From positions 62,001-126,000 of the forward strand of contig JALHSP010000026.1 of NCBI GenBank assembly GCA_022865305.1: 64,000 nucleotides of DNA, written 5' to 3'. The notes beneath the pieces are model-generated. The model was given only the letters and a program-made list of their open reading frames with translations, ran no database searches and was not told the DNA's origin. This DNA is from Bacteroidales bacterium (lineage in GTDB: Bacteria; Bacteroidota; Bacteroidia; Bacteroidales; VadinHA17). Shown piece after piece: positions 31,700 through 52,174 of this stretch (position 1 is its first letter; the number at the start of each line of letters is the position of its first letter). The translations under genes were made by a program, and so were the position numbers.

Positions 31700-32962
31700 A
31701 TGAAAATGATTCAGGACTTCAATTTTAAAGGGAAGAAAGTCATTGTCAGGGTGGATTTCAATGTGCCTCTTGACAAGAAAACCTTTGTTGTTACAGATGA
31801 TACCCGTATCAGAGGGGCAATACCAACTATCAAAAAGATACTGAAAGACGGAGGATCCGTTATTCTGATGTCGCACCTCGGAAGACCGGAAGGACGTATG
31901 GAAAAATATTCACTTAAACCTGTCCTGCCTGTTCTGGAAAAACACCTTGGTATGAAAGTACTGTTTGCCGATGACTGCCTTGGTGAATCAGCAGTAAAAA
32001 TGTCTGCTGCATTAATGCCGGGAGAGGTATTGCTGCTGGAGAATGTAAGGTTTTATCCGGAAGAAGAAGGCAAGCCGTTATTGCCGGACACTGCAACCGA
32101 TGAGGAGAAGAAAACAGCAAAAGCTGAAATGAAAGTAAAACAGAAAGAACTGGCCAAAAAACTGGCAGGTTATGCTGAAGTATATGTTAATGATGCATTC
32201 GGAACAGCACACAGGGCACACGGAACAACCGCCGTGATTCCAGAATATTTCCCAAAAGATAAGATCATGTTCGGATTCCTTATCAACAGCGAACTGGCAG
32301 CAATGGACAAAGTGCTTAATAATGCCCAGCGACCATTTACTGCCATTATGGGCGGGGCAAAGGTTTCGGATAAAATAATGATAATCGAAAACCTGCTCAA
32401 CAGGGTTGATAACCTTATAATAGGGGGAGGTATGACATATACCTTTATTAAGGCAAAAGGAGGTAAGATTGGCAAATCTCTTTGTGAGGAAGATAAACTC
32501 GACCTGGCACTGAAGATCATCGAAAAAGCAAAGGAAAAGAAAGTCAATCTCTATTTACCGGTTGACAGTCTTAATGCGGATAAGTTTGAAAATGATGCGA
32601 ATACGGCTGTGACAGCAGTTGACGCAGTAGAGGACAACTGGCTCGGACTTGATATTGCTGAAAAAACAATCAGGGAATTTACAGCAGTAATCGCAAACTC
32701 AAAAACAATTCTCTGGAACGGACCAATGGGAGTATTTGAAATGGAGAAATTCTCAAAAGGGACCACAGCTGTTGCAAAGGCAATAGCTGATGCCACGGCA
32801 AAAGGTGCATTCAGTCTTATCGGCGGCGGCGATTCGGTTGCTGCAATCAACAAGAATGGGCTTGCAGATAAGGTTAGCTATGTTTCAACTGGCGGGGGAG
32901 CAATGCTTGAATATATGGAAGGCAAAAAGCTTCCCGGGATTGTGGCGATAAGAGGAGAATAG
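31700..32962 (+). CDS. pgk: Phosphoglycerate kinase
   Basis: Glycolytic/gluconeogenic transfer of phosphate between 1,3-bisphosphoglycerate and ADP. 420 residues; [12 protein letters not shown] near the start, [26 protein letters not shown], and the ATP-binding GGGDSVAA with [21 protein letters not shown] at the end, all family hallmarks. The insertion around residues 120-150 ([18 protein letters not shown]) is charged and helical. Monocistronic: own -7 box upstream and a terminator downstream. Confidence 0.97.
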
Positions 32963-32986
32963 GGTGCAAGGGCGCAATGGCACAAC
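32963..32986 (+). repeat. Period-8 repeat, three units (GGTGCAAG, GGCGCAAT, GGCACAAC)
   Basis: Three consecutive 8-mers immediately after the pgk stop codon. Same family as 36985-37008, 37031-37062 (inverted) and 156-173. Confidence 0.6.
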
Positions 32987-33012
32987 AGCATAAGAGATGA
33001 TTAATAACTGGA

Positions 33013-33698: not shown

Positions 33699-34684
33699 GA
33701 CCGGATTTATTAAACCGGATATTTCAAATTAAAGATCAAACCAGTTTTCAGGATACAGCCCTGGAAATATTTGCTTATCAGTTTGCTAATAATCCGGTTT
33801 ATAATGATTTCATAAAGCAGCTCGGTCTTAATCAGAACGCGGTTCATGCAGTTCCTGACATCCCCTTCATTCCTGTAGAGTTTTTTAAAAGTCATAAAAT
33901 AGTGACCGGAAGCCATCCGGCCGCGATCATCTTTGAAAGCAGTGGTACATCGGGGAAATATGTCAGTAAACACTTTGTAGCCGATCCGGCATTATATGCG
34001 GAGAGTCTTTTAAGGACATTCAGACTCTTTTATGGCGAACCATCAGAATATTTCATTGCTGCTTTGCTGCCCTCATCTGTTGAAAGGAAAAATTCTTCCC
34101 TTACTTTCATGATGCAGGATCTGATTAACAGAAGTGCAAATCCCTTCAGTGGATTCTATCTGAACAATATCAGGGGAATGATTTCCTCCATTAAACAGAG
34201 CCGTTCAGCAAATCAAAAAGTTTTTTTAATAAGTGTAAGTTATACACTTATTGATCTGGCTGAAGAATATTCACCGGATCTTTCAGGTGTTATTGTGATG
34301 GAAACAGGAGGGATGAAGGGCAGGAGAAAAGAAATGACACGGGAAGGACTTCATTCGGTTCTGAAAAAGAAATTCAATCTGCCTGCCATTCATTCTGAAT
34401 ACGGGATGACCGAACTTTTAAGTCAGGCCTATTCAAAGGGAGAAGGGATTTTCTATTGTCCGCCGTGGATGAAAATATTTATCAGGGATCCTCAGGATCC
34501 TCTGACATTGATATCTGAACCAGGAAGAACCGGAGGAATTAATATAATAGACCTTGCCAATATTTACTCTTGTTCCTTCATTGCTACAGACGATCTCGGA
34601 AGGATTCATGAAGACGGAGGATTTGAGGTACTTGGAAGGCTTGACAACTCCGATATCCGCGGCTGTAACCTTCTTATAGAATAA
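33695..34684 (+). CDS. LuxE-like acyl-protein synthetase family protein
   Basis: 329 residues from ATG 33695, which overlaps the preceding stop (ATGA). IIFESSGTSGKYVSKHFV is an adenylate-forming-enzyme P-loop-like block, and HSEYGMTELLSQAY and DLGRIHEDGGFEVLGRLDNSDIRGCN are the conserved later motifs. The family resembles LuxE, which activates fatty acid as acyl-AMP and transfers it to an enzyme cysteine; in Bacteroidetes the substrate is unknown. No luxCD or lux genes are nearby. Ends 5 bp before the period-9 repeat. Confidence 0.85.
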   Translation: MRPDLLNRIFQIKDQTSFQDTALEIFAYQFANNPVYNDFIKQLGLNQNAVHAVPDIPFIPVEFFKSHKIVTGSHPAAIIFESSGTSGKYVSKHFVADPALYAESLLRTFRLFYGEPSEYFIAALLPSSVERKNSSLTFMMQDLINRSANPFSGFYLNNIRGMISSIKQSRSANQKVFLISVSYTLIDLAEEYSPDLSGVIVMETGGMKGRRKEMTREGLHSVLKKKFNLPAIHSEYGMTELLSQAYSKGEGIFYCPPWMKIFIRDPQDPLTLISEPGRTGGINIIDLANIYSCSFIATDDLGRIHEDGGFEVLGRLDNSDIRGCNLLIE

Positions 34685-34689
34685 AAAAG

Positions 34690-34716
34690 GTCGTGCAAGT
34701 CGTGCAAGTCCGGCAA
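34690..34716 (+). repeat. Period-9 repeat, three units (GTCGTGCAA x2, GTCCGGCAA)
   Basis: Three consecutive 9-mers between the LuxE-like stop and the truncated mmcQ/yjbR gene, exactly where that gene loses homology. Same 9-nt spacing and GTC...AA pattern as the array next to the four-helix-bundle ORF at 50652. Confidence 0.65.
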
Positions 34717-34849
34717 GACCGCCATCGAGGTTAACAAGCGCAAAAATTTTCCCGCCAGCTTTAAAAACTAATGTTTCATCATCGAAAGGAAAGCTTTCAG
34801 TGGCATCCTGTTTCGATATACAATATTCTCTTAATGTTTCAATATTCAT
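34717..34849 (-). pseudogene. Truncated MmcQ/YjbR family gene (N-terminal third only)
   Basis: The first ~44 residues (MNIETLREYCISKQDATESF, PFDDETLVFKAGGKIFALVNLDGG) match the N-terminus of the MmcQ/YjbR family, about 115 residues when complete. Past that the frame runs into the period-9 repeat (translated as GLARLARPFLF) and then antisense to the LuxE-like gene with no further homology; the conserved CyaY-like second half (LKCDPE..., HMNKKHW...) is gone. I interpret this as a gene cut by a repeat-associated insertion or deletion. The frame stays open to 34433 only by chance. Confidence 0.7.
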
Positions 34850-36959: not shown

Positions 36960-36991
36960 CAAAAATAGGACTAATTTAAATAAAGGCACAA
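36960..36991 (-). promoter_or_regulatory. Promoter of the histidine kinase operon
   Basis: Minus strand: -33 TTG (36991-36989), 21-bp gap, -7 TATTTTTG (36967-36960). The -33 element lies inside the period-8 repeat at 36985-37008. Confidence 0.55.
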
Positions 36992-37008
36992 CGGCTCAGT
37001 GGCTCAAC
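36985..37008 (+). repeat. Period-8 repeat, three units (GGCACAAC, GGCTCAGT, GGCTCAAC)
   Basis: Three 8-mers in the divergent intergenic region between the kinase gene and waaA. An inverted array of the same family follows 22 bp later, so the two can pair as an imperfect hairpin. Confidence 0.6.
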
Positions 37009-37030
37009 AATAAGAATGAATGATTTTCTC

Positions 37031-37062
37031 TTTGTGCCTTTGCGCCCCTGCGCCTTTGTCCC
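37031..37062 (-). repeat. Inverted period-8 repeat, four units
   Basis: On the plus strand TTTGTGCC, TTTGCGCC, CCTGCGCC, TTTGTCCC, each exactly 8 nt, the reverse complement of the GGCnCAAA unit. Confidence 0.65.
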
Positions 37063-37069
37063 TTTTTCT

Positions 37070-45923: not shown

Positions 45924-47114
45924 TCAATTTAAGACTTTAAGTTCCTTTCCGATCTTTTCAAAAGCATTTATAGCCTTATCGAGGTGCTCTTTTTCATGTG
46001 CCGCCGAGAGCTGTACTCTTATTCTTGCCTGATCTTTTGGAACAACAGGATAATAAAATCCTATGACATAAATATCTTCTTTTAAAAGTCTGGCTGCAAA
46101 CTCCTGGGACAGTTTGGCATCATATAACATCACTGCGCATATTGCAGATTTTGTGGGTTTTATGTCAAATCCAAGCCTGGTCATCCGGCTGATAAAATAT
46201 TCAGCATTCCGGTGAAGTTTATCCTGCAGGACATTTGTCTCTGTCATCATATCGATCATTTTGATCCCTGCTGCAGCAACCAGTGGTGGTATCGAATTTG
46301 AGAAGAGGTAAGGTCGTGATCTCTGGCGGAGCAGTTCGATAATTTCTTTTTTCCCTGTTGTAAAACCGCCAATAGCTCCGCCAAATGCCTTTCCGAGGGT
46401 ACCGGTTATTATTTCAACATGTCCCATGAGGTTATATAGTTCTGTAACGCCTCGTCCGGTTTCTCCGACAACTCCTGCAGAATGAGATTCATCGACCATG
46501 ACCATAGCGCCATACAGGTTTGCAAGCTCCACAATTTTATTCAGAGGGGCAACATTCCCGTCCATAGAGAAAACTCCATCAGTAACAATTAAACGGAAGC
46601 GTTGTTCCTGCGCCAGCTGAAGCTGCGTCTCAAGATCTTCCATGTCAGCGTTATCATACCTGTACCGCTGGGCTTTACAAAGCCGGACGCCATCGATAAT
46701 TGAAGCATGATTCAATGCATCCGAAATTATTGCATCTTCGCTTGTAAGAAGCGGTTCAAACACGCCGCCATTGGCATCAAAGCATGCAGCATAAAGGATC
46801 GTGTCTTCGGTATTGAAGAACTTTGCAATTTTTCTTTCCAGTTTTATGTGGAGATCAGTTGTTCCGCAGATAAACCTGACCGATGACATCCCGTAACCAT
46901 GATCGTCCAGTGCTGATTTTGCTGCTTCAACAAGATTCGGATTATTTGAAAGTCCGAGATAATTATTGGCACAGAAATTCAACACTTTTTGGCCGCTGTT
47001 CAGCTCAATTTCAGCGCCTTGTGGAGATATGATAACACGTTCATTTTTATAGAGGCCAGCTTCTTTTATCTCTTTAAGCTGGTTCGTAAGATAATTCTGA
47101 AAGGCAGTATACAT
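45924..47114 (-). CDS. kbl: Glycine C-acetyltransferase (2-amino-3-ketobutyrate CoA ligase)
   Basis: PLP enzyme of the alpha-oxoamine synthase family, 396 residues. It cleaves 2-amino-3-ketobutyrate with CoA to glycine and acetyl-CoA. Motifs: NNYLGLSNNP, GMSSVRFICGT, SDALNHASIIDGVRL, TDGVFSMDGN, DESHSAG, and the PLP lysine in ITGTLGKAFGGAIGG. tdh, which makes its substrate from threonine, lies 4 kb away on the same strand, so a threonine-degradation pathway is complete. About half-identical by eye to the neighbouring paralogue at 47212. Confidence 0.92.
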   Translation of the reverse strand: MYTAFQNYLTNQLKEIKEAGLYKNERVIISPQGAEIELNSGQKVLNFCANNYLGLSNNPNLVEAAKSALDDHGYGMSSVRFICGTTDLHIKLERKIAKFFNTEDTILYAACFDANGGVFEPLLTSEDAIISDALNHASIIDGVRLCKAQRYRYDNADMEDLETQLQLAQEQRFRLIVTDGVFSMDGNVAPLNKIVELANLYGAMVMVDESHSAGVVGETGRGVTELYNLMGHVEIITGTLGKAFGGAIGGFTTGKKEIIELLRQRSRPYLFSNSIPPLVAAAGIKMIDMMTETNVLQDKLHRNAEYFISRMTRLGFDIKPTKSAICAVMLYDAKLSQEFAARLLKEDIYVIGFYYPVVPKDQARIRVQLSAAHEKEHLDKAINAFEKIGKELKVLN

Positions 47115-47211
47115 GTGTATTTTTTTGCATTACAAAGAAAATACAAAATTGATGATTACCTAAGGTCTAATTTATGATGATAATCATTTATCGTAACAAA
47201 ATTTCTACGGA

Positions 47212-48459
47212 TTAAAGACCATATTTTTCTATGATCTTTTCTTTTGTTAATCCAAGGATTTCATATTTCTTTCCAACTTTAATAAAGGCAGATAATGCCT
47301 TTTCAAGATGATGAATCTCGTGCCCGGCAGAAATCTGAGTTCTGATCCTTGCCTGTCCGTTCGGAACTACAGGAAAGAAAAAGCCAATTGCGTAGATTCC
47401 TTCGTTATACAGGTCCTTCGAGAAATCCTGGGATAATTTTGCATTGAACAGCATAACGGGTACAATCGGACTATCACCTTCCTTCAGAATAAACCCGGCT
47501 TCAGTCAATCCCTTTCTCCACCAGTTTGCATTTCTTTCAAGCTTGTCACGTCTTTCAGTACTTGAAGACAGAATATCAAATACTTTAAGCACCCCTGAAA
47601 TAATTACCGGAGAAATAGTGTTGGAAAAGAGATATGGACGTGCTTTCTGCCTGCATATCTGGACTATTTCCTTTCTTCCTGATACACATCCTCCGGAAGC
47701 TCCGCCAAGAGCTTTCCCGAAAGTTGTGGTAATTATATCAATTTTGCCAATAACATTAAAATGTTCATGAGTTCCTCGTCCGGTTCTTCCAAGAAATCCT
47801 GATGAATGGGAATCATCTACAAGTATCATTGCATCATATTTCTCGCAGAGTCTTACCATTTCATCAAGTTTGGCAAGGTCGCCATCCATTGAGAAAACGC
47901 CATCGGTTATAACCAGCTTTATTCTCTTGTCTGCATGAAGTTGAAGTTTCTCTTCCAGATGCTCCATATTAGAATGTTTGAAAGTATCATGCTGAGCACT
48001 GCAAAGCCTCATCCCGTCAATTATAGATGCATGAACGAGCCTGTCTGAAATCATTATGTCTTCACTGGTAAGTAATGCTTCAAAAACTCCGGCGTTGGCA
48101 TCCATGCATGAAGGGAACAGGATTGTGTCTTCAGTGCCAAGGAATTCTGTAACCCTGTTTTCAAGTTCCCTGTGAATATCCTGTGTTCCGCAAATAAAGC
48201 GTACTGACGACATGCCATAGCCTCTTTTTTCAAGTCCTTCATGTGCAGCTTTCAGAACATCAGGGTGGCTTGATAATCCAAGATAGTTGTTGGAACACAT
48301 ATTAATTACATTCTTAATACTGGCTCCTGAAGGAAATTCAACTTCAATATCAGCTGCCTGAGAAGAATGAATAAACCGTTCTTCTTTAAAAATCCCGGCA
48401 TTCCGGATCTCTGCCAGCTGATTCTGGTAAAGATTTTTGATCTTATCGCTATAGCTCAT
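47212..48459 (-). CDS. Second alpha-oxoamine synthase (Kbl-like paralogue) beside an ACP gene
   Basis: 415 residues with all PLP features: NNYLGLSSHP, GMSSVRFICGTQDIH, DDSHSSG and the PLP lysine in ITTTFGKALGGASGG. It is close to Kbl but has a longer N-terminus and an extra C-terminal helix (LTKEKIIEKYGL). Family members condense an acyl-thioester with an amino acid (serine palmitoyltransferase, cysteate acyltransferase, BioF, Kbl). Its position 105 bp downstream of a stand-alone ACP gene and next to an acyl/acetyl-CoA ligase suggests the acyl donor may be an acyl-ACP; this is inference. It could equally be a second Kbl. Confidence 0.82.
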   Translation of the reverse strand: MSYSDKIKNLYQNQLAEIRNAGIFKEERFIHSSQAADIEVEFPSGASIKNVINMCSNNYLGLSSHPDVLKAAHEGLEKRGYGMSSVRFICGTQDIHRELENRVTEFLGTEDTILFPSCMDANAGVFEALLTSEDIMISDRLVHASIIDGMRLCSAQHDTFKHSNMEHLEEKLQLHADKRIKLVITDGVFSMDGDLAKLDEMVRLCEKYDAMILVDDSHSSGFLGRTGRGTHEHFNVIGKIDIITTTFGKALGGASGGCVSGRKEIVQICRQKARPYLFSNTISPVIISGVLKVFDILSSSTERRDKLERNANWWRKGLTEAGFILKEGDSPIVPVMLFNAKLSQDFSKDLYNEGIYAIGFFFPVVPNGQARIRTQISAGHEIHHLEKALSAFIKVGKKYEILGLTKEKIIEKYGL

Positions 48460-50565: not shown

Positions 50566-50651
50566 GAAAAAAATGTATTAATAAATTACTCAGATATCCA
50601 AGATATGTATTTTTTTTTCAGCTATTGTTACTCAATTCTGATTTTATTTAA

Positions 50652-50696
50652 GTCTGTAAGGTCTGTAAAGTCCATAAAGTTTGTAAGGTATGAAAG
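50652..50696 (+). repeat. Period-9 repeat array, five units
   Basis: Units GTCTGTAAG, GTCTGTAAA, GTCCATAAA, GTTTGTAAG, GTATGAAAG, all exactly 9 nt, just downstream (3' side) of the four-helix-bundle ORF. Same spacing and GTC start as the array at 34690. Confidence 0.7.
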
Positions 50697-50731
50697 TTGG
50701 AAAGGAGTATAAGATCAATAAAGATTTAGTT

Positions 50732-51076
50732 TTAGAGTTTTTTAATAAATCCTGATAACATTTTTGATATTTCAATTGAGGAGTTATAAAGCTCCTTAAA
50801 TTCCGAATCAGAGATTTTTTGAGTCTCTTTAGCCAGATAAAGCATCGATCTTAGTTCTCCACAAGAACCTTTTGCAATAAACAGAAAATGTTTGAATTCA
50901 TTATTAGTGCTTCTCTCAAAACCCTCCGCAATATTATTCATAATCGATACAGAAGCCCGAAGAATCTGATCCTTTAATCCAAAATCCTTACAATGTTCAA
51001 ATAATTTATAAATTATTACTGCAAGCTTTTTTGAATTTTGCCAGATAACAATATCCTCAAATCTTTCAGCTTTCAT
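50732..51076 (-). CDS. Four-helix-bundle protein (23S rRNA intervening-sequence / S23 type)
   Basis: 114 residues, all helical, with the family pattern FEDIVIWQNSKKLAVIIYKLF, FGLKDQILRASVSIMNNIAEGFER and EFKHFLFIAKGSCGELRSML. Proteins of this family are encoded in rRNA intervening sequences and, as Avd, in diversity-generating retroelements; here there is neither an rRNA nor a reverse transcriptase nearby. The ORF sits between ligase and tdh, bracketed by inverted period-9 repeats, which suggests a small mobile or passenger unit. Function unknown. Confidence 0.88.
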   Translation of the reverse strand: MKAERFEDIVIWQNSKKLAVIIYKLFEHCKDFGLKDQILRASVSIMNNIAEGFERSTNNEFKHFLFIAKGSCGELRSMLYLAKETQKISDSEFKELYNSSIEISKMLSGFIKKL

Positions 51077-51110
51077 AAAGGAATCATTTCAGTTTTAAAG
51101 GCATCATTCT

Positions 51111-51137
51111 ATACAACTTTATAAACTTTTAACTTAC
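51111..51137 (-). repeat. Period-9-like repeat on the 5' side of the four-helix-bundle ORF (inverted)
   Basis: On the minus strand two 9-mers GTTTATAAA and GTTGTATAG plus a partial unit, resembling the array at 50652 but on the opposite strand; it ends 2 bp before the tdh stop codon. Confidence 0.45.
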
Positions 51138-51139
51138 AG

Positions 51140-52174
51140 TCATTCCCAGTTTAATATCACTTTTCCGCAATTCCCTTTTTCCATTACATCAAATCCCTTC
51201 TGAAAATCATCTATATGAAAGCGATGTGTTATTATGGGATTGAGGTCAATACCGCCGATTATCATCATTTCCATCTTATACCAGGTTTCCCACATCTCTC
51301 TTCCATATATACCTTTTAATGTTATTGCCTTGAAAATGATATCACTCCATGGTACTGCAAAATCTGAAGGAAGTATCCCGAGCAATGAGATACTTGAGCC
51401 ATTGTACATGTTACTGATCATTTCGACAAATGCCTTTGGGGAGCCTGACATCTCCATCCCGATATCAAATCCTCTCATCCCCAGCTTTTTAACTGCATCA
51501 GATATCTTTTCTCCCCTGGAAGGATTGACTGTCATTGTTGCCCCCATTTTCCTGGCTATATCAAGGCGATAATCGCTCAGGTCGCTTGCAACGATAAATC
51601 TGGCACCGGCAAATTTTGCAATGGCAACAGCCATACTGCCTATAAGTCCGGCTCCGGTAATAAGAACATCTTCTCCAAGGAGCGGGAACGACAGCGCGGT
51701 ATGTGTTGCATTTCCGAAAGGATCCATGATAGCTGCCCATTCATCTGGTATCCTTTGATCGAGTGGTATGACATTTGAAGAAGGTATTTTAACATATTCA
51801 GCAAATGATCCGTCGATATGTACTCCAATTCCCAGGATGTTTTCGCAGACATGCTCTTTACCGCGACGACAGTTGCGGCAATGCCCGCAGGCAATATGTC
51901 CTTCTCCTGTCACTCTTTCCCCGATCTTAAGATTTGTAACTCCTTTTCCCATCTTTTCAATATAGCCCATATACTCGTGTCCGATTATCATGGGTGTTTT
52001 TATAGTTTTCTGTGACCAGGCATCCCATTCATAGATATGAAGATCAGTGCCACAGATTGCTGATTTACTGACTTTTATTACAACATCATTAAGACCCGGT
52101 TCAGGTACAGGAGCCTCCTCCATCCATAAGCCTTTCTCCGGTCTTGCTTTTACTAAAGCTTTCATCTTTTTCAT
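51140..52174 (-). CDS. tdh: L-threonine 3-dehydrogenase
   Basis: Zinc-dependent medium-chain dehydrogenase oxidising threonine to 2-amino-3-ketobutyrate. 344 residues; catalytic-zinc residues in AICGTDLHIYEWD and GHEYMG, structural-zinc cysteines in CGHCRNCRRGKEHVC, Rossmann GAGLIGSMAVAIAK. The sequence THRFHIDDFQKGFDVMEKGNCGKVILNW is the Tdh C-terminus. A second Met at codon 4 (52165) is an alternative start. Kbl (45924) takes the product. It is separated from the ligase by the four-helix-bundle unit. Confidence 0.95.
   Translation of the reverse strand: MKKMKALVKARPEKGLWMEEAPVPEPGLNDVVIKVSKSAICGTDLHIYEWDAWSQKTIKTPMIIGHEYMGYIEKMGKGVTNLKIGERVTGEGHIACGHCRNCRRGKEHVCENILGIGVHIDGSFAEYVKIPSSNVIPLDQRIPDEWAAIMDPFGNATHTALSFPLLGEDVLITGAGLIGSMAVAIAKFAGARFIVASDLSDYRLDIARKMGATMTVNPSRGEKISDAVKKLGMRGFDIGMEMSGSPKAFVEMISNMYNGSSISLLGILPSDFAVPWSDIIFKAITLKGIYGREMWETWYKMEMMIIGGIDLNPIITHRFHIDDFQKGFDVMEKGNCGKVILNWE

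Follow-up and report, generated by a model that had tools for sequence, protein, structure and literature searches.

Our study reports on a small unit of DNA between two protein-coding genes of a Bacteroidales bacterium, in which a single gene for a protein of the 23S rRNA intervening-sequence family (IVP, or S23) is set between short tandem arrays in inverted orientation. The unit lies in a 64,000-nucleotide stretch of this genome (the window; contig JALHSP010000026.1, positions 62,001 to 126,000 of the forward strand), and comparison of occupied with empty sites shows that the unit and its arrays are present or absent as one block, with a 5-bp duplication left where this is readable. The same build, an IVP gene between inverted arrays of 7-9-nt units, is shown by our sequence comparisons to recur in many phyla, and the window unit seems to be one member of a family of small mobile units that is widespread. 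With moderate confidence we propose that it is a free-standing relative of the rRNA intervening sequences (IVS), a mobile unit of about 500 bp whose IVP acts on the arrays at its own ends.

The unit between acs and tdh and its empty sites

The minus-strand ORF at 50732-51076 encodes 114 amino acids and matches both PF05635 (23S rRNA IVP/S23; E 1.6e-35) and TIGR02436 ('four helix bundle protein'; E 1.8e-35). An AlphaFold2 model of the protein has four helices (mean pLDDT 95.7), which agrees with the four-helix-bundle assignment of the initial annotation, as do the structural matches found by Foldseek (see below). This is the one long ORF of the unit, whose sole Pfam match is PF05635, with no transposase gene. 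On the 3' side of the gene, ending 34 bases from its stop codon, TRF places a period-9 array of the GTCTGTAAG type at 50650-50697 (5.4 copies); a shorter array of the reverse-complement type lies on the 5' side at 51110-51139 (51110-51129 by TRF), and the best ungapped inverted match pairs 50667-50681 with 51115-51129 (score 11). The inverted period-9 arrays that had been noted around the ORF are thus indeed present. With up to three mismatches allowed, GTCTGTAAGGTCTGTAAAG is confined within the window to the array at 50650-50697, where shuffles expect 0.00 occurrences. The period score of this array, 13.5, exceeds that of 99% of shuffles (10.3) and lies below the strict cut-off of 16 on one side that we apply throughout; since the inverted-end score of 11 is likewise below its cut-off of 14, the window unit is a worn copy.

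The neighbours of the unit are a gene for an AMP-binding enzyme (here acs) and tdh, encoding L-threonine 3-dehydrogenase. The unit is therefore placed outside rRNA, and a search of the locus with Rfam gave no match; nor does the window contig contain a match to the reverse transcriptase family PF00078, the genome's three matches being on other contigs (C21, C3 and C87). The absence of both rRNA and reverse transcriptase, stated at the outset from the window alone, is borne out. Comparison of the window IVP with a phage collection gave no match. Near tdh, at 45924-48459, lie two neighbouring genes that each exceed the score threshold for glycine C-acetyltransferase (kbl).

Among the matches listed for the 41 genomes searched, acs and tdh lie side by side in four: the source genome, G012, G003 and G020. 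G012 carries the unit with both arrays kept and a broken, shorter ORF; G003 and G020 are without it. From this comparison, with the ends set by eye between the 5-bp copies, the mobile unit extends from 50649 to 51139. The proposed target duplication consists of TTATT at 50644-50648 and TCATT at 51140-51144, both read on the plus strand, of which the second has one mismatch and overlaps the tdh stop codon; in G012 the two copies are TTATT on both sides. In a further genome, G066, a related IVP with a different unit directly follows the same tdh stop, and the next gene resembles the kbl of the window.

Plasmids of cyanobacteria provide cleaner sites. One plasmid unit is present in two T. variabilis records and in Scytonema, while six records with flanks of about 97.5% identity are without it; setting T. 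variabilis plasmid C against two of these six, the plasmids of Nostoc linckia and Tolypothrix 7601, reveals a 5-bp duplication of GTAAT, and Nostoc C052 has a decayed copy. Two plasmids of Nostoc ATCC 53789 are each other's empty site, with a TTCTA duplication for one unit (pNsp_a). The GTAAT and TTCTA sites both give exact ends with 5-bp duplications. Presence and absence were also found, with no readable duplication, at five plasmid sites (L078, L083, L178, L179 and L180) and at two sites in the genus of G138, where the duplication is unreadable because the empty sites carry repeats of another kind. The duplication can therefore be read at three of the ten sites, two of them clean and that of the window with its mismatch. 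A scan of flanks without empty sites found at least 5 bp shared in 31 of 102 cases against 17.6% of mispaired flanks, a weak excess on which we do not rely.

At the plasmid and window sites, 12 of the 13 empty stretches are free of arrays (score 8 or less), the exception, L185, being an IVP-less pair of arrays; the arrays therefore come with the unit. This result tells against the view that nothing here is mobile, the IVP being a host gene and the arrays a slippage-prone spacer that it happens to adjoin, and slippage in a spacer would not yield inverted ends that match each other. Such a view would accommodate the many arrays found without an IVP, the part of the Bacteroidota that has IVPs at shared places with worn arrays, and the arrays of another kind at the empty sites of the G138 genus (the first two are described below); it is already disfavoured and we consider it improbable. 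The suggestion of a repeat-bounded mobile unit in the initial annotation is supported by occupied and empty sites that differ by the unit with its arrays and by the enrichment of arrays beside IVP ORFs.

The same build across genomes and the rules of its arrays

The source genome has 18 matches to PF05635, and the family is found in 53 of 58 genomes of the genus. Most of the 18 genes are flanked by short tandem arrays with a unit specific to the element, often on both sides as reverse complements; the 18 copies are diverse, and no recent burst of copies was seen among them. Counted as 17 loci (L016, a second fragment of the gene at L013, was left out), they include 11 with a period score of at least 16 on a side and 16 with at least 11, and 29 loci from 29 related genomes gave 24 with at least 16. 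For the genus as a whole this score is reached at 35 of 46 loci, compared with 1 of 213 tiles of the window and 0 of 445 dinucleotide shuffles; inverted ends scoring at least 14 are found at 38 of the 46 loci (L049 and L050, identical over 3318 bases, both being counted), compared with 19 of 300 when ends are mispaired and 11 of 46 when they are matched in direct orientation.

An alignment of five IVPs was then used to scan other phyla, and the best 80 of at least 584 confirmed stretches include Pseudomonadota, Bacteroidota, Planctomycetota, Acidobacteriota, Chloroflexota, Bacillota and Patescibacteria, together with one cyanobacterium, one contig labelled Methanophagales, and others. Within these best 80, inverted ends reach 14 at 56 loci (13 of 229 mispaired; 14 of 80 direct) and the period score reaches 16 on a side at 35. 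Tiles scoring at least 16 make up 47 of 154 adjoining an IVP ORF and 26 of 838 at a distance of more than 900 bp. Plasmid loci have this period score in 9 of 12 cases and inverted ends of at least 14 in 7 of 12. Chance arrays are ruled out by the shuffles, the window tiles, the far tiles and the mispaired ends.

A sample of Bacteroidota contains IVP genes in 232 of 296 genomes (220 above the family cut-off), which makes the unit class common in this phylum. Among the 29 best-scoring new loci of that sample, chosen by score and not by random draw, the period score reaches 16 in one and 12 in 10, and inverted ends are found in 16, all 16 of them G-rich inwards. Several of these IVPs (L196, L197, L200, L202, L204 and L215) have worn arrays and flanks that are 70-84% similar, and the length of this flanking similarity places them at one shared position in related genomes. 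They possibly represent one domesticated copy, and from their sequence context the shared-place IVPs look like old copies kept vertically, not mobile ones.

The arrays follow recognizable rules. A period could be called in 111 of 138 elements and is 7 in 79, 8 in 23, 9 in eight and 6 in one. The units vary between elements and agree between the two ends of one element; read inwards, G exceeds C in 102 of 108 arrays and falls below it in three. After rotation the period-7 units fit TYAGKRR, with one column G at 95%. The rotation alignment itself lifts the consensus, and information content was hence compared with column-shuffled units, a null that leaves the shared ancestry of units in: it is 3.66 bits against 2.84 (sd 0.10, largest 3.11 of 60) for period 7, 4.39 against 3.57 (sd 0.18) for period 8, and 7.71 against 5.76 (sd 0.46) for the eight period-9 units. 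The period also clusters on a protein tree built from few columns, with 20 changes against a shuffled mean of 29.7 (none of 200 shuffles as low). The more alike two proteins are, the more alike are their units, whose similarity goes from about 0.55 below 45% protein identity to 0.66 at 55-70% and 0.86 above 70% (Mantel r 0.14, a value that 0 of 500 permutations attained), a correlation that is weak overall and carried by close pairs.

The converse association is much looser. Scanning 720 kb of the source genome gave 83 arrays scoring at least 12. On the IVP-rich contigs (256 kb) 25 of the 53 arrays lie within 400 bp of an IVP; the 464 kb that were not selected for IVPs contain 30 arrays, of which only that of the window is so placed. 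IVPs thus mostly have arrays, yet most arrays are without an IVP. The idea that arrays might be scattered at random with respect to such ORFs fails when viewed from the ORFs, which are mostly accompanied by arrays, and retains force when viewed from the arrays, 29 of the 30 unselected ones having no IVP. This figure, with the 1 of 29 Bacteroidota IVPs that reaches the strict cut-off, speaks against a tight link between IVP and array.

The IVP-less arrays are nevertheless akin to those of the units. A set of 42 (intended score limit 14; one scores 12, and a few qualifying arrays were left out) has a resemblance of 0.815 to 16 IVP arrays of the same genome, against 0.749 (sd 0.006) for equal-sized draws from the genus and 0.745 (sd 0.011) for draws from elsewhere. 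On the 35-kb contig C71 of the source genome (L246, L247), which carries four IVP genes, many inverted IVP-less pairs of the GTAATCG type are interspersed with GTAATCG IVP elements, and on pNsp_c an IVP-less pair (L185) occupies the place where a relative has a full unit (L179). The window itself contains an IVP-less inverted pair of period-8 arrays at 36982-37065, with a loop of about 20 bases and an inverted score of 16 (the right arm scores 11), which may be a miniature derivative. A solo period-9 array at 34690-34724, identified by TRF and array scores, lies where a broken minus-strand YjbR-like frame (34436-34849) gives out; the frame matches its family only up to the array (profile positions 2-33 of 88; 27.6 bits, below the Pfam cut-off of 30.1). 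The initial annotation had taken this array for the same repeat type as that of the IVP unit; the period of 9 and the end of the family match at this point agree with it, but the unit (GTCGTGCAA) is different. Arrays of similar 9-mers (e.g. GTCATGCAA) recur on contigs C157, that of the window, and C1. A solo period-8 array is found at 32961-32996, directly after the stop codon of the phosphoglycerate kinase gene (PF00162).

The protein and the mode of movement

The IVP ORF is, by codon comparison, under purifying selection: dN/dS ranges from 0.03 to 0.28 in the eight pairs, out of 15 compared, for which dS was finite, three of these eight sharing members and dS being saturated in the other seven. 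Across 15 varied members Q13, Q40, S47, E54 and E77 are invariant and R43, N51, G55 and S74 nearly so (L081 numbering). Foldseek matches the model to the IVP crystals 2rld, of BT_0352, and 2gsc (E about 1e-5), both with five chains, followed by the Avd protein 4dwl (TM 0.78, E 0.01) and the DGR complex 8ub7; a reference title describes the Xanthomonas IVP structure as an assembly of five four-helix bundles. No catalytic domain was found in the IVP.

DNA transposases commonly leave duplications of 5 bp. This, together with the want of a known catalytic domain in the IVP and the existence of IVP-less array pairs, would fit a passenger unit, in which any DNA that ends in inverted arrays would be mobilised by a DNA transposase of the host or of a helper, the IVP being cargo with some other use. 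Beyond the loose motif described above, such a helper would have no fixed end sequence to read; moreover, period and unit track the IVP, which is under purifying selection and is the common gene of the units. Movement of a passenger by host or helper enzymes, the mechanism first suggested for the window unit, is for these reasons possible and less likely than a role for the IVP itself, and we regard it as unlikely.

The fold shared with Avd, which acts with its reverse transcriptase, and the capacity of the arrays to close an RNA stem raise the further prospect of RNA-mediated movement by a reverse transcriptase in trans. PF00078, the one family searched, has matches in 22 of the 58 genus genomes, and 32 of the 36 drafts without it hold IVPs, in up to 16 copies; IVP number does not track PF00078 number (Spearman 0.155, p 0.25). 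Dependence on a reverse transcriptase is not supported, a helper of this kind looks unnecessary, and we give this route little credence.

Two plasmid copies are situated within CRISPR operons, one between cas6 and cas4 (L080, 2501-2869) and the other between cas10 and a Cmr3-family gene (L083, 2501-2857). The presence of units in such operons may be the reason why the 23S rRNA IVP is listed among CRISPR-associated families in a figure legend of PMC10910872. These two copies are also what might recommend a reading in which the gene serves in defence, in regulation or as a toxin-antitoxin system and has repeats of its own; in the units read, however, there is a single gene with no fixed partner, and further copies are set between genes for nrd, secretion and transfer functions, so that we hold this reading to be very improbable.

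Returning to a unit whose own protein acts on its ends, we propose that the IVP would recognise, at either end, the arrays that belong to its element, whether as DNA or in the hairpin they can form, and draw the two ends together, and that insertion would proceed through a 5-bp staggered cut made by the IVP or by a host enzyme. The arrays could lengthen, shorten and change their unit by slippage, the two ends being kept alike through mutual copying, and IVP-less array pairs may be non-autonomous derivatives or relics. In transcripts the G-rich 5' arm would pair with the C-rich 3' arm, and an RNase III cut of the paired arms, as known for rRNA IVS, might make insertion between the genes of an operon tolerable. 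The RNA of a Nostoc unit folds better than its shuffles (z -7.5); in the fold predicted for the window transcript the ends pair, but this fold scores no better than those of shuffles (z -0.96).

Relation to intervening sequences and scattered repeats

The 23S rRNA IVS are the nearest known relatives. By the available parts of PMC4990558, they share with the window unit an ORF of the S23p/IVP family, a length of about 430-500 bp and inverted ends, which in the IVS form a stem, and differ from it in that the window unit lies between protein genes; arrays at both ends, element-specific units, inward G-richness and the 5-bp duplication further set units of the window type apart from the IVS as described there. 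The same text reports one 23S IVS with tandem GACAGAT heptamers ahead of its S23p ORF, two or three by strain, in which RNase III cuts at the first heptamer repeat (PMC4990558). A copy from Azospirillum, L086, lies inside LSU (23S) rRNA, and its ends have an inverted match of 10 bases and a period-7 stretch of 30 bases, both below our cut-offs (inverted 10, period 10.5). The initial separation of the unit from rRNA IVS therefore holds for the window unit, which is outside rRNA, and is too sharp in general, given L086 and the heptamers of the one IVS in PMC4990558. Searches of 20 of the 80 cross-phylum loci with Rfam found none in rRNA, and a word search of all 80 for 23S, of unchecked sensitivity, found none either.

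With Avd of the diversity-generating retroelements (4dwl, 8ub7) the IVP shares its predicted fold; the window contig has no reverse transcriptase, and its unit has arrays where DGRs have template and variable repeats. Insertion sequences and MITEs have in common with the IVP units their inverted ends, a short duplication and gene-less derivatives, but the IVP unit has no known transposase, and its ends are element-specific tandem arrays instead of a fixed terminal repeat.

Heptameric repeats of heterocystous cyanobacteria have been known as STRR, a name that dates from 1990. GGGNATC repeats are described from Xanthomonas and Nostoc, with 70-75 paired inverted heptamer sites in each Xanthomonas genome (PMC4692102), and TAACTGA repeats from Beggiatoaceae (PMC4679880), according to the accessible text of both papers. 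All share with the IVP units tandem 7-nt units in spacer DNA; their period is 7, whereas that of the window unit is 9, although 79 of the 111 called elements have 7. The accessible text of these two papers mentions neither S23 nor four-helix proteins (0 occurrences), and the titles and abstracts covered, with few subscription papers and preprints among them, hold no general link between IVP/S23 and tandem repeats, the exception being the single IVS of PMC4990558. The heptamer repeats of Xanthomonas, Nostoc and Beggiatoaceae may, we infer, be remains of IVP units. We advance more tentatively the bolder possibility that the IVP is the sole mobility protein, performing both recognition and strand transfer, and that its units form a class of transposable elements that is categorically new, with telomere-like, element-specific array ends, of which the rRNA IVS and the scattered heptamers of cyanobacteria, Xanthomonas and Bacteroidota would be special cases or remains.

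The units pose two riddles: what keeps the private repeats of the two ends similar to each other, and how a protein of 114 residues with no known catalytic domain is to be reconciled with insertion that leaves a 5-bp duplication. If our proposal is right, the scattered 7-9-nt tandem repeats of bacteria would have a protein associated with them and a means to spread, and the rRNA IVS would gain a larger family that lives mostly outside rRNA. The window unit may in this way tie together two old puzzles, the short tandem repeats scattered through bacterial genomes and the extra pieces inside some rRNA genes.
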